From assembly GCA_038831005.1 (NCBI GenBank), contig JAWBKZ010000002.1, forward strand, positions 248,001-312,000: DNA of 64,000 nt. The letters are read 5' to 3'. The position numbers were made by a program, and so were the translations under genes. Below, in pieces: positions 13,206-17,852 of the stretch (within the stretch, counting starts at the first letter, position 1; each line of letters begins with the position of its first letter). This stretch comes from Ignisphaera sp. Lineage in GTDB: Archaea > Thermoproteota > Thermoprotei_A > Sulfolobales > Ignisphaeraceae. A model generated the notes under the pieces. It was not told the origin of the DNA. It was given only the letters and a program-made list of their open reading frames with translations, and made no database searches.

Positions 13206-13250
13206 TAAATTATATTTATATGTGTATTTGAGTTCGATACAGAGTATCGA
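13206..13250 (+). promoter_or_regulatory. Promoter and possible operator of the GH35 gene
   Basis: A TATA-like AAATTATATTTATATG (13206-13221) is followed by an inverted repeat TCGATAC (13234-13240) and GTATCGA (13244-13250) around three bases. The repeat would overlap the predicted transcription start, a usual place for a repressor site. Confidence 0.4.
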
Positions 13251-13338
13251 TCTAGTGGATAATGGAGATCGTAGGTGATGGTTTATACAGATTTCGTACG
13301 ATAATGATTTTCTATCTATTGATGGCTCTAGAGTCTTT

Positions 13339-16311
13339 TTGATGTGTGGTGAAGTTCATTATTTTAGAGTGCCTAGAGCTCTGTGGTATGATCGTTTGCT
13401 GAAGGTTAGGAGAGCTGGTTTTAATTGCGCTGCTAGCTATATTCCATGGAATTGGCATGAACCTGAAGAAGATAGTGCAATATTTAGCAATAGGGTTTTT
13501 GATTCACCTTATGAATCAAATTTGTTTAGTAGAGATTTAGAGAGCTATATCCAGATGATCAAGAGTTTGGGTATGTTTTTTGTAGCTAGACCAGGGCCAT
13601 ACATATGTTCTGAATGGGATAGTGGTGGACATCCTAACTGGCTTTATAGAAAAACAAAGGTGCTTAGATCTATTGATAAAGACTATATCGAAGCTGTTGA
13701 GAAATGGTATAGAGTTGTGCTACCGATAATAGCTCGATACACAGTTCCACGTAATGGTCCTACGATTCTTCTCCAAATCGAGAACGAGTATTTCTGGGGT
13801 GATGCTCCATACATATTGAAGCTCTACGAGATAGCTAGAAAATATGTAGAGGATATACCTATAGTTACAAATGAGGATTGGTTTCTAGAGGATACACCTA
13901 TTGCAAACACTATAGATGATTATCCAGTACCATGGGATATAGAGGAATTCGACAATAAGATCAAGAGCTATATGAAGATGCGGAAAGGTTTCTTGAAGAT
14001 GTTTATGGAGCTAGAGGGTGGATGGTTTACATACTTTGGCTCACTCTATCCCACTAGTAGAGGATCTATTCCTGCTGAATGGAGTGAAACTCTATTGAAG
14101 ACAGCAATAGGATTAGGAATCAATTCAGTAAATATATACATGTTTCATGGAGGAACAAATCCAGGGTACTATACAGGTAAATATATAACGTCTTCGTATG
14201 ACTATGAAGCACCAATAAGAGAGTGGGGAGAGCTATCGCAGAGATACTATGTCTTGAAGAGGATAGCTATGTTCATCAAGTCATTCAGCAAACTTTTAAC
14301 AAAAACAGTCCCTGTTGATGGTGCTGTAGAGGTGAGCAATAAAGATGTTGAGGTATTTGCTAGAGTTAGTGATAGTGGAGCTATAGCTATCTTAAGGAAT
14401 CTAGATATATACCCTAAACTCACGAAGATTATCTACAGAGGTCATGTATATCCATACAGAAACATTGTTATGGTTCCTCATAGAAATGCTAAAATAGTTC
14501 TCCTAGATACTGAGATAGAGGATACTCCATTCAGGATTCTTTATACATTATCAGAACCGCTACTCATAGAGAGATTCGATGTAGATACTCTCATCATGGT
14601 TTATGGTGATGTATCTGAAGTTGGAGAAATAGGTATAGAGTCTAGTAAACCTATATCTATTGTGTATACAGAAGGTATGGATGTGGATAAGAGGAACGAT
14701 AGATTAGTTATATTAAGTTATGTGCATAGCTACATAGACTCTATAGCTATTCTAGAATCAGAAGGTAGGAGGTTATATATTGTGGCTCTATCTAGAGATA
14801 GAGCTAGTAGAACATGGTATATAGATGATGTAGATCCTCCAATTATTGTGGTATCGAATATATACTTCATTGGGCGAACAACATCTAGAGAAGATGGCTT
14901 GGTTCTAGAAGCAGAAGTTGATGAAGAGAGCTGTGGATCTATACTACTTGTATCTTCTAGACCTCTCTCATCTATATACGTGAACGGTAGATCTATAGAG
15001 TTTGAGAATATGCATGGAGTTCTCTATAGATCTAGTCTTAGTCAAGATTTCTGTAGAGATATAGATCAACACAAAATTATGTATGGACATATGTGGAGAT
15101 ATAGAGAGGATATCATAGATGTCGATGGGAGAGAGATAGAGGCAATGAAGCCTCTAGAGATTGTTGGATATACATCTAATGGCTACTACATATATACAAT
15201 AGACTTCAATATAGATAGAGATGTTTTTAAGTACCTCAAGAATTCTTATATCTATATAAGCTACTTTAACGATTATGCTACAGCTATACTTAATGGAAAA
15301 ACACTTGGATCAAGATACCATACTCTAGAAATAGATGCATCAAATATACTGAAAGAAGGTGCAAATAGATTAACTATACTTCTAGAAGCTACTGGTCATC
15401 CAAATGATGGTCTTGTCTATATCCCCAATGGTATTGTTGGAGGCATATACCTAGGTAAACTTGAAGAGATTCAGCTAAACGACTGGAGATACATAAAGAT
15501 ACAGACTAGATATGGTAGAGACTTCAGTATGGCTAGATTCATTAACAATCCTGAGGAAGTGGTAAAGATACTGAATAATATAGATGCAGAGAGTTCTAGT
15601 GATACAGCTAATTCTCTTGAGAAACAAGGTCTCTATATAAAGTATCTAGATATAGATAAAAAGAGAGGTAGATATATTCTAGATCTAGGTAAAGCTACAT
15701 ACTATAGTAACTACTTCTACTATCCAAGAGCCCTAATATTTGTGAACAAGAGATATGTCTCGATATATACAGGACCTATAGATATAACAGAGTATCTTAC
15801 TGAAGGTATTAACGAAATTGCTGTATATATAGATTGGTCTCGTATAGCTCTACACCCAATCCTAAAGATATATCAGTATAAGGTCAATGGTTTATGGAAA
15901 GTTAAACCATATACCAAAGGACTAGAGGAGAAGTGGTATACAGAGGATCTAGATGATAGCTCGTGGAGCTGTATAGAGATCCCCAAGATCTTTAAGGATA
16001 CCGAAGGTAGAGTTCTATGGATCAGAAACAAGATACATATAGATTATCCAATAGATACTGTAGCTCCACTAAAGCTCATCATTAAAGCTAGTAATGTCAA
16101 GATCTTGGTATTCTTCAATGGACAGATTATTGGTAGATATGTTGATGAAGGTCCACAGAGAGAATTCTACATACCTGAACCCCTACTTAAAAACGGATTG
16201 AATACTATAGCTTTAGCAGTACATGTAACAAGCAGTAGAGCATCAATCGATAGTATACGTATTGAGCCATTCTACGTAAATAAGAAACTAGCTATAGAGT
16301 TAGAGTGGTAA
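13339..16311 (+). CDS. Glycoside hydrolase family 35 (beta-galactosidase-like), N-terminus out of frame
   Basis: About 990 residues. The GH35 TIM barrel is clear: GEVHYFRVPRALWYDRLLKVRRAGFNC, WNWHEP, RPGPYICSEWDSGGHPNW, QIENEY with the acid/base Glu near residue 150, MELEGGWF with the likely nucleophile near 224, and FHGGTNPGYYTG. The remaining roughly 650 residues look like beta-sandwich and jelly-roll domains. It would release terminal beta-galactose or a related sugar. There is no signal peptide in this frame, so it is probably cytoplasmic. The frame continues upstream without a normal start codon, encoding YDNDFLSIDGSRVF, a conserved beta-hairpin before the barrel. The only ATG with a good ribosome site (13278) is in another frame. 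Confidence 0.88.
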   Translation: MMCGEVHYFRVPRALWYDRLLKVRRAGFNCAASYIPWNWHEPEEDSAIFSNRVFDSPYESNLFSRDLESYIQMIKSLGMFFVARPGPYICSEWDSGGHPNWLYRKTKVLRSIDKDYIEAVEKWYRVVLPIIARYTVPRNGPTILLQIENEYFWGDAPYILKLYEIARKYVEDIPIVTNEDWFLEDTPIANTIDDYPVPWDIEEFDNKIKSYMKMRKGFLKMFMELEGGWFTYFGSLYPTSRGSIPAEWSETLLKTAIGLGINSVNIYMFHGGTNPGYYTGKYITSSYDYEAPIREWGELSQRYYVLKRIAMFIKSFSKLLTKTVPVDGAVEVSNKDVEVFARVSDSGAIAILRNLDIYPKLTKIIYRGHVYPYRNIVMVPHRNAKIVLLDTEIEDTPFRILYTLSEPLLIERFDVDTLIMVYGDVSEVGEIGIESSKPISIVYTEGMDVDKRNDRLVILSYVHSYIDSIAILESEGRRLYIVALSRDRASRTWYIDDVDPPIIVVSNIYFIGRTTSREDGLVLEAEVDEESCGSILLVSSRPLSSIYVNGRSIEFENMHGVLYRSSLSQDFCRDIDQHKIMYGHMWRYREDIIDVDGREIEAMKPLEIVGYTSNGYYIYTIDFNIDRDVFKYLKNSYIYISYFNDYATAILNGKTLGSRYHTLEIDASNILKEGANRLTILLEATGHPNDGLVYIPNGIVGGIYLGKLEEIQLNDWRYIKIQTRYGRDFSMARFINNPEEVVKILNNIDAESSSDTANSLEKQGLYIKYLDIDKKRGRYILDLGKATYYSNYFYYPRALIFVNKRYVSIYTGPIDITEYLTEGINEIAVYIDWSRIALHPILKIYQYKVNGLWKVKPYTKGLEEKWYTEDLDDSSWSCIEIPKIFKDTEGRVLWIRNKIHIDYPIDTVAPLKLIIKASNVKILVFFNGQIIGRYVDEGPQREFYIPEPLLKNGLNTIALAVHVTSSRASIDSIRIEPFYVNKKLAIELEW

Positions 16312-16844: not shown

Positions 16845-17852
16845 GTGGAATTGGTGATGCAAAGTATATGTGTTGAAAATCAAGCAGAGATAGTTTCTTT
16901 AAAGAGTATATATAGAAGTGCTGTAGATCTATCTATGGTTTCAGTAATCATACCTGTACTTAATGAAGAAAAAGCTATAGGTATGGTGATAGATGAGATA
17001 GTTTCTATAGGTATCTCTAGAGTCAATATAGTTGTTGTTGATGGGGGAAGTAGCGATAGAACTGTAGAGATAGCTAGATCACGTCAAGTTCTTGTTGTAC
17101 CTCAAGAAGGTAGAGGTAAAGCTGATGCTGTTAGAACTGGATTGAGATATGTTTCAACTCCATATGTAGTTGTTATAGATGGTGATGGGACGTATCCAGC
17201 GAAATACATATCTGCTATGGTTGAGGCTTTAGAGAGTAATGGATGTGATCTAGTTATAGGTGCTAGAATCTATGGTCATGGATCTCAAAAACCTGTTTTC
17301 AGGTTTGGGAACAAGGTTCTTACAAAATTCTTTAATATACTCTTTGGTACTAATTTAAGGGATGTATTAAGCGGTATGTATATGGCTAGAGTAGATGAGT
17401 TAAGCACTATTGATTTTGAGATGGATGGATTTAGCCTAGAATCTGAGATAGTTAGTCATTTCGCTAGTTTTGGAAATATATGTGAAATACCTATAGAGTA
17501 TAGATCTAGAGTAGATCCAAAAGCAAAGAAATTAAATGTTCTTCACGGACTCAAGATAGCAAAAGATATTGTTAGACTTATGTGGAGATATAATCCAACT
17601 TTATTCATATCATCAATAGGAATTCTAATGCTTATACCAGGACTTGTTTTAGGAGGATATACAGCATATCACTACTTCTTTACAGGCATAAAACATTATG
17701 TTAAAGGAGTTATAGCAGTAATACTTACAGCAACAGGTCTTATATCATCTGTAGTAGCAGTTCTATCACTATATATAAAGAGGTTCGAGATAAGAATCAC
17801 TAGGCAACTCGAGAAAATAAGAAAAGAAATGACTAAGAACATCAAAAGATAA
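16845..17852 (+). CDS. Family 2 glycosyltransferase with C-terminal membrane helices (DPM/AglJ-like)
   Basis: The GT2 domain begins at VSVIIPVLNEEKAIG, with VVVDGGSSDRTVEIA for nucleotide binding, the metal motif VIDGDGTYP, and LSGMYMARV with the acceptor-side region after it. Two membrane helices at the C-terminus (LFISSIGILMLIPGLVLGGYTAYHYF and VIAVILTATGLISSVVAVLSLYI) mark a polyprenyl-phosphate glycosyltransferase that loads a sugar onto dolichyl phosphate for N-glycosylation or S-layer decoration. The first 30 residues before the domain are unusual, and a downstream start is possible. It is followed by a surface-protein gene in the same direction but with its own promoter region. Confidence 0.88.
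   Translation: MELVMQSICVENQAEIVSLKSIYRSAVDLSMVSVIIPVLNEEKAIGMVIDEIVSIGISRVNIVVVDGGSSDRTVEIARSRQVLVVPQEGRGKADAVRTGLRYVSTPYVVVIDGDGTYPAKYISAMVEALESNGCDLVIGARIYGHGSQKPVFRFGNKVLTKFFNILFGTNLRDVLSGMYMARVDELSTIDFEMDGFSLESEIVSHFASFGNICEIPIEYRSRVDPKAKKLNVLHGLKIAKDIVRLMWRYNPTLFISSIGILMLIPGLVLGGYTAYHYFFTGIKHYVKGVIAVILTATGLISSVVAVLSLYIKRFEIRITRQLEKIRKEMTKNIKR

Follow-up and report, generated by a model that had tools for sequence, protein, structure and literature searches.

The locus raises a simple question: how is translation of a glycosidase gene begun when its reading frame holds no ordinary start codon at the place where the conserved protein begins? The gene, a member of glycoside hydrolase family 35 (GH35), lies on the forward strand of a 64,000-nucleotide stretch of Ignisphaera sp. 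DNA, referred to here as the window.

A GH35 frame without an ordinary start codon

An earlier note on this DNA had described a main frame that is open from 13279, encodes YDNDFLSIDGSRVF and has no ATG, GTG or TTG ahead of the TTG at 13339, and the sequence bears this description out. The frame is closed upstream by an in-frame TGA (13276-13278), runs from 13279 onward through 1010 stop-free codons, carries YDNDFLSIDGSRVF within its first 20 residues, and offers TTG 13339 and then ATG 13342 as its first canonical codons. Since no canonical start precedes TTG 13339, the start gap is real, and the GH35 gene is a gene without an ordinary start codon. Read from the ATA at 13285, the gene (13285-16311, with its stop at 16309-16311) would encode 1008 amino acids.

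The identity of the gene was established by a match to the Pfam family Glyco_hydro_35 (PF01301) that covers positions 2-316 of the 319 in this catalytic profile, with an E-value of 6.3e-70 and a score of 236.7 bits against a curated cut-off of 27. The window protein contains the motifs IENEY (residues 165-169) and MELEGG (residues 241-246) and retains the two glutamates that we take to be catalytic; E166, E168, E242 and E244 were invariant across 10 aligned GH35 sequences. The product is thus predicted to be a beta-galactosidase-like enzyme. A search of its own genome with the protein returned one match, the window gene itself. Within the genus, 9 of 11 genomes (this one included) contained a GH35 match and none was found in G002 and G010, making this a patchy gene.

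Ahead of the catalytic part, positions 13285-13338 of the forward strand encode an N-terminal beta hairpin, IQISYDNDFLSIDGSRVF, recognized by its identity to relatives and by predicted strands. Over hairpin residues 3-18 the mean identity of the window protein to seven genus relatives was 0.37, and those seven scored 0.33-0.43 each against the others. For the catalytic part, the window protein had the lowest mean identity of the genus group (0.71 versus 0.78-0.82), which makes it the most divergent there. Its identity to the outgroup L009 (0.562) fell among those of the relatives (0.556-0.579), and its identity to L010 (0.497) was slightly below theirs (0.524-0.541). A structure model was computed from a 10-sequence alignment; the model was poor in parts of the barrel, and we used its first 24 residues, where strands were predicted at 3-6, 9-12, 15-17 and 19-24, with block pLDDT values of 87 and 90 for residues 1-20. 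The hairpin appears free of visible decay, and the segment looks as if it has been coding until the present or until recently. By eye, three of the relatives (L002, L003 and L008) have a hydrophobic, membrane-anchor-like stretch ahead of the hairpin, which is absent from the window gene and from L004-L007; the location of the enzyme may therefore vary within the genus.

The surroundings of the gene were also inspected. An A+T stretch resembling a TATA box (13211-13221, forward strand, found by eye) could put the transcript start near 13240-13250. Near this presumed start lies a perfect 7-bp palindrome, TCGATAC-AGA-GTATCGA (13234-13250), which occurs as a single exact copy in the genome. Allowing up to two mismatches, it matched 16 times per strand as against 20 for a control pattern; with no sign of a regulon, we rejected it as an operator or leader hairpin. 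No Rfam family above the gathering score and no tRNA were found in the window. At the next gene, which encodes a family 2 glycosyltransferase, the sequence at 16845-16859 contains GGTGATG, and an in-frame ATG (16857) overlaps the Shine-Dalgarno-like motif; whether this gene starts at GTG 16845 is uncertain.

The start position in homologues and its Shine-Dalgarno sequence

To compare start positions, we looked for homologues across the phylum, where 25 of 398 genomes gave a match, and across the order, where 14 of 214 did; only matches with an E-value of 1e-60 or better were kept. Starts were counted in genus, phylum and order loci whose N-terminus is present, by reading the 5' ends after turning reversed loci. 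Fragments and loci with masked or missing N-termini (L011, L070, L071, L077 and L082), additional loci of genes that were in the counts already (L057, L058, L059, L078 and L079) and the ambiguous L081 (ATG at -3, and upstream of it an in-frame ATG at -19 and a TTG at -26) were left out, and L012-L025 were not part of these counts. On visual inspection of the translations, the GH35 homologues fall into two N-terminal types, 17 with the hairpin (L002-L008, L060, L061, L063-L069 and L076) and eight without it (L009, L010, L062, L072-L075 and L080).

In all 17 hairpin-bearing homologues the distance from a canonical in-frame start to the CGE/SGE motif is between 20 and 28 codons, and 14 of them have such a start at -20 to -22; several carry additional canonical codons farther upstream, so that their starts are only presumed. 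The window frame has an ATA (13285-13287, forward strand) exactly 20 codons before CGE. In the protein comparison, three relatives of the same genus (L002, L006 and L007) have ATG at precisely this position; the AUA is thus not retained among them. A frame-blind DNA alignment likewise placed GGTTTATA of the window opposite GGTTTATG of L006 and L007, that is, TTT-ATA against TTT-ATG. L006 and L007 are sister sequences in the gene tree and were therefore counted as one line of descent. From these alignments, 13285 is very probably the ancestral start site of the GH35 gene, and a substitution of ATA for ATG accounts for the defect more readily than would the gain or loss of a base. Together with the spacing described below, the alignments mark this ATA as a probable non-canonical start or else as an ATG that was lost or misread.

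The 16S rRNA identifies this genome as archaeal, and the tail of that rRNA is GGATCACCTCCT, from which the matching motif is AGGTGAT at 13273-13279 of the forward strand, 7 nt complementary to the tail and 5 nt before ATA 13285. We calibrated the spacing on contig C2, using 266 ORFs with a length of 150 codons or more and 16S complements of at least 6 nt. At aligned spacings of 3 to 6, a site was followed by an in-frame ATG, GTG or TTG in 41 pairs, whereas the two out-of-frame controls gave 3 and 10; at a spacing of -2 there were 6 in-frame pairs versus 4 and 1. The distance from AGGTGAT to ATA 13285 is an aligned spacing of 5, inside the 3-6 peak. Among the internal start-like codons of C2, which number 2712, a 16S match of at least 7 nt at spacing 3-6 occurred just 4 times. 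The duplex energy upstream of the ATA was -10.0 kcal/mol; in a sample of 264 internal start-like codons 4 attained this value, as did 18 of 265 first canonical starts. In short, an in-frame AUA stands at the homologous start position behind a strong and correctly spaced Shine-Dalgarno sequence. An ATT at 13291 is served by the same site (-9.8 kcal/mol), but at an aligned spacing of 11, outside the 3-6 peak, and a start there is not favoured.

ATA codons as a class showed no such association. We scanned the first 240 nt of the 266 ORFs on C2, one contig of nine, for ATA codons behind a site of at least 6 nt at spacing 3-6. Among the 1220 ATA codons counted in early reading frames, 13 had a well-spaced Shine-Dalgarno sequence against a background of 11.0. 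This lack of enrichment on C2 indicates that ATA as a class has no general start use here, and we rejected genome-wide use of ATA starts. Just four of these 13 lack a canonical start upstream, and in three of the four the very next codon is one. The ATA at 13285 is the sole one of the four without an immediate canonical codon, the next being 18 codons on. Elsewhere on the contig and outside the window (C2:86929; L035:6929-7909), an ORF has GAGGTGA before a CTG, and its next canonical start lies 13 codons on; L056 (MANQLTLLNYDENG) resembles the LTIELLDQEN of this ORF, for which a CTG start is possible judging by this resemblance.

A possible frameshift, base error or loss of the start

The earlier note had put forward another way into the frame, from the ATG at 13278. 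This ATG is, as described, one frame off and meets TAA (13302-13304) after eight codons, and arithmetically a +1 shift before 13302 does join the two frames, which speaks for initiation there followed by a frameshift. The GTAGGTG-ATG named as a proper ribosome site was not borne out as such: AGGTGAT overlaps the ATG (aligned spacing -2). A weaker site, GGAG at 13264-13267, does give a 4-nt match at an aligned spacing of 5, and the duplex energy for the region upstream is -7.0 kcal/mol. With GGAG in register and this energy, some initiation at ATG 13278 may occur, although a match this good also precedes 366 of the 2712 internal start-like codons of C2. Against a frameshift, homology of the main-frame protein extends upstream as far as 13291, where I-S-Y-D of the window protein corresponds to V-S-Y-D of L064 and L069, and in the DNA alignment to 13285, so that a shift or an indel is confined to about 13281-13290 and about three codons are left for a shift. 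None of the 17 hairpin-bearing homologues needs one. By eye, 13278-13304 contains no slippery run of the A-AAA-AAT kind, and the RNA fold of 13245-13345 was not unusual (z -0.38). Neither homology in both frames nor an arrangement kept in homologues was found. The archaeal fucosidase frameshift is a -1 event at A-AAA-AAT (PMC8037382), and a 2021 review gives this one alone as a known archaeal programmed frameshift (PMC8211752). The suggestion of a regulated frameshift like that of the archaeal alpha-fucosidase was not supported, given a precedent of the other direction and homologues that need no shift. Because of the main-frame homology to 13291, the Shine-Dalgarno overlap and the lack of any homologue needing it, we rejected the +1 frameshift as the main reading and consider it highly improbable; the out-of-frame ATG and its eight codons (13278-13304, forward strand) are most likely incidental.

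A gene that was damaged or misread, also raised in the earlier note, is a different matter. The true codon may be ATG, with the ATA arising from faulty base calling or assembly or from a minor strain variant. One change would be enough, since relatives have ATG at this position; the genome is in nine contigs and the compared set contains no second genome of the species. An indel in 13281-13290 would be a less likely form of such an error: it would bring ATG 13278 into frame at about -22, a position that falls among those of the homologues, and of the two kinds of error envisaged a start-codon substitution fits better than an indel does. Base errors are rare in well-covered assemblies, however, and the 1010-codon frame has no other apparent breaks. 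We regard an error or variant as rather unlikely. Alternatively, the start was recently lost by an ATG-to-ATA change, and the gene now gives a short protein lacking the hairpin from TTG 13339 or ATG 13342 (13339-13344, forward strand), or little or no product. Such a change has been described in nadA of resequenced archaeal laboratory strains (PMC11834397). The patchiness of the gene in the genus (G002 and G010 have no match) would fit a loss, as would the catalytic part of the window protein, which diverges more than that of any other group member and is slightly farther from L010. Moreover, eight homologues do without the hairpin. Among the families searched, f1, f9 and f31 contained this type, with starts 3 to 8 codons before CGE and an MLLCGE start in four of the eight; one member (L080, from G479) has a single in-frame TAA inside the match. 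The L009 protein showed no difference from PDB entry 8qqh over all 975 aligned residues, and both begin MTLLCGE, so a member of this GH35 group folds although it lacks the hairpin. The gene tree, whose rooting served for drawing only, unites the window protein with L009 (97/98), but L009 and L010 have long branches.

Several observations speak against a loss of this kind. TTG 13339 and ATG 13342 have no Shine-Dalgarno sequence: their best 16S matches at spacing 3-6 are 2 and 3 nt, and their duplex energy is -2.4 kcal/mol, with 196 of the 264 internal start-like codons in the sample at least as good. This is not decisive, as five of the eight hairpin-less homologues (L009, L072, L073, L075 and L080) likewise have a match of at most 3 nt at this spacing. 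Translation from TTG 13339 would begin MMCGE, and the two codons, at -2 and -1, lie nearer to CGE than any presumed start of the eight. There is also little sign of decay, with the 1010-codon frame intact, the hairpin conserved and the divergence from L009 within the range of the relatives. A short product from 13339 or 13342 is possible; we rate start loss a serious rival, albeit an unlikely one.

AUA as a candidate start codon

The reading that we favour is that AUA 13285 itself is the working start of the GH35 gene, a proposal to which we give an even chance. Its homologous position, its frame, the Shine-Dalgarno sequence and the spacing are observed; we infer that the base call is correct and that the AUA is used in the cell. 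The 7-nt Shine-Dalgarno sequence AGGUGAU would set the small subunit so that the AUA occupies the P site, where the initiator tRNA (anticodon CAU) would pair with its positions 1 and 2 and be mismatched at the third. Such a mismatch would presumably lower initiation and not abolish it, and the resulting low-level initiation would yield the full-length enzyme, hairpin included. We suggest more tentatively that the gene represents an archaeal glycosidase naturally started at AUA, a start upheld by a 7-nt Shine-Dalgarno sequence and acting as a built-in brake on translation. Several points weigh against AUA initiation: ATA is very common in early frames, which makes a single one unremarkable; ATG stands exactly at -20 in three relatives only, two of them sisters; the same site also serves ATT 13291, though at spacing 11; ATG 13278 has GGAG in register; and hairpin-less homologues exist.

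AUA starts are described in Staphylococcus aureus for infC, ccpN and citZ, where AUA reporters reached about 10% of AUG in poor medium and ccpN at most 30% in rich medium (PMC13009471). For Archaea, a review names AUG, GUG and UUG as starts (PMC7531240), and aIF1 of Sulfolobus promotes discrimination against non-canonical starts (PMC6237735). No natural AUA-started archaeal gene was found in the literature searched, a body that excludes most subscription journals. AUA initiation is already a known kind of event, and a natural archaeal case would be a modest addition to it. If true, it would test how stringently the initiation factors of archaea control start-codon choice, and the GH35 gene would then be a ready reporter for archaeal non-canonical initiation. 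What had appeared as a frameshift puzzle is reduced to a simple start-codon question. It has a practical side as well: a gene caller that accepts ATG, GTG and TTG only would set the start 18 codons late and lose the hairpin.

The locus can be compared with three known systems. PDB 8qqh is a GH35 beta-galactosidase of the same family and of similar overall length, and L009, whose sequence it shares, is 43% identical to the window protein; however, it lacks the N-terminal hairpin that the window gene encodes. PDB 8uid is nearly the same as 8qqh. Like fucA of Saccharolobus solfataricus, the window gene is an archaeal glycosidase gene that is not read simply from one start, but in fucA a -1 shift connects two overlapping ORFs (PMC8037382), whereas the second frame in the window consists of eight codons without homology. 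There is also a likeness in arrangement to infC and ccpN of S. aureus, where an AUA at the start position also stands behind a long, well-spaced Shine-Dalgarno sequence (PMC13009471). Those genes are bacterial and were studied by ribosome profiling and reporters, whereas the present gene is archaeal and known from sequence alone; and the AUA start of ccpN is conserved between S. aureus and Bacillus subtilis (PMC13009471), whereas the AUA of the present gene is seen in one species.
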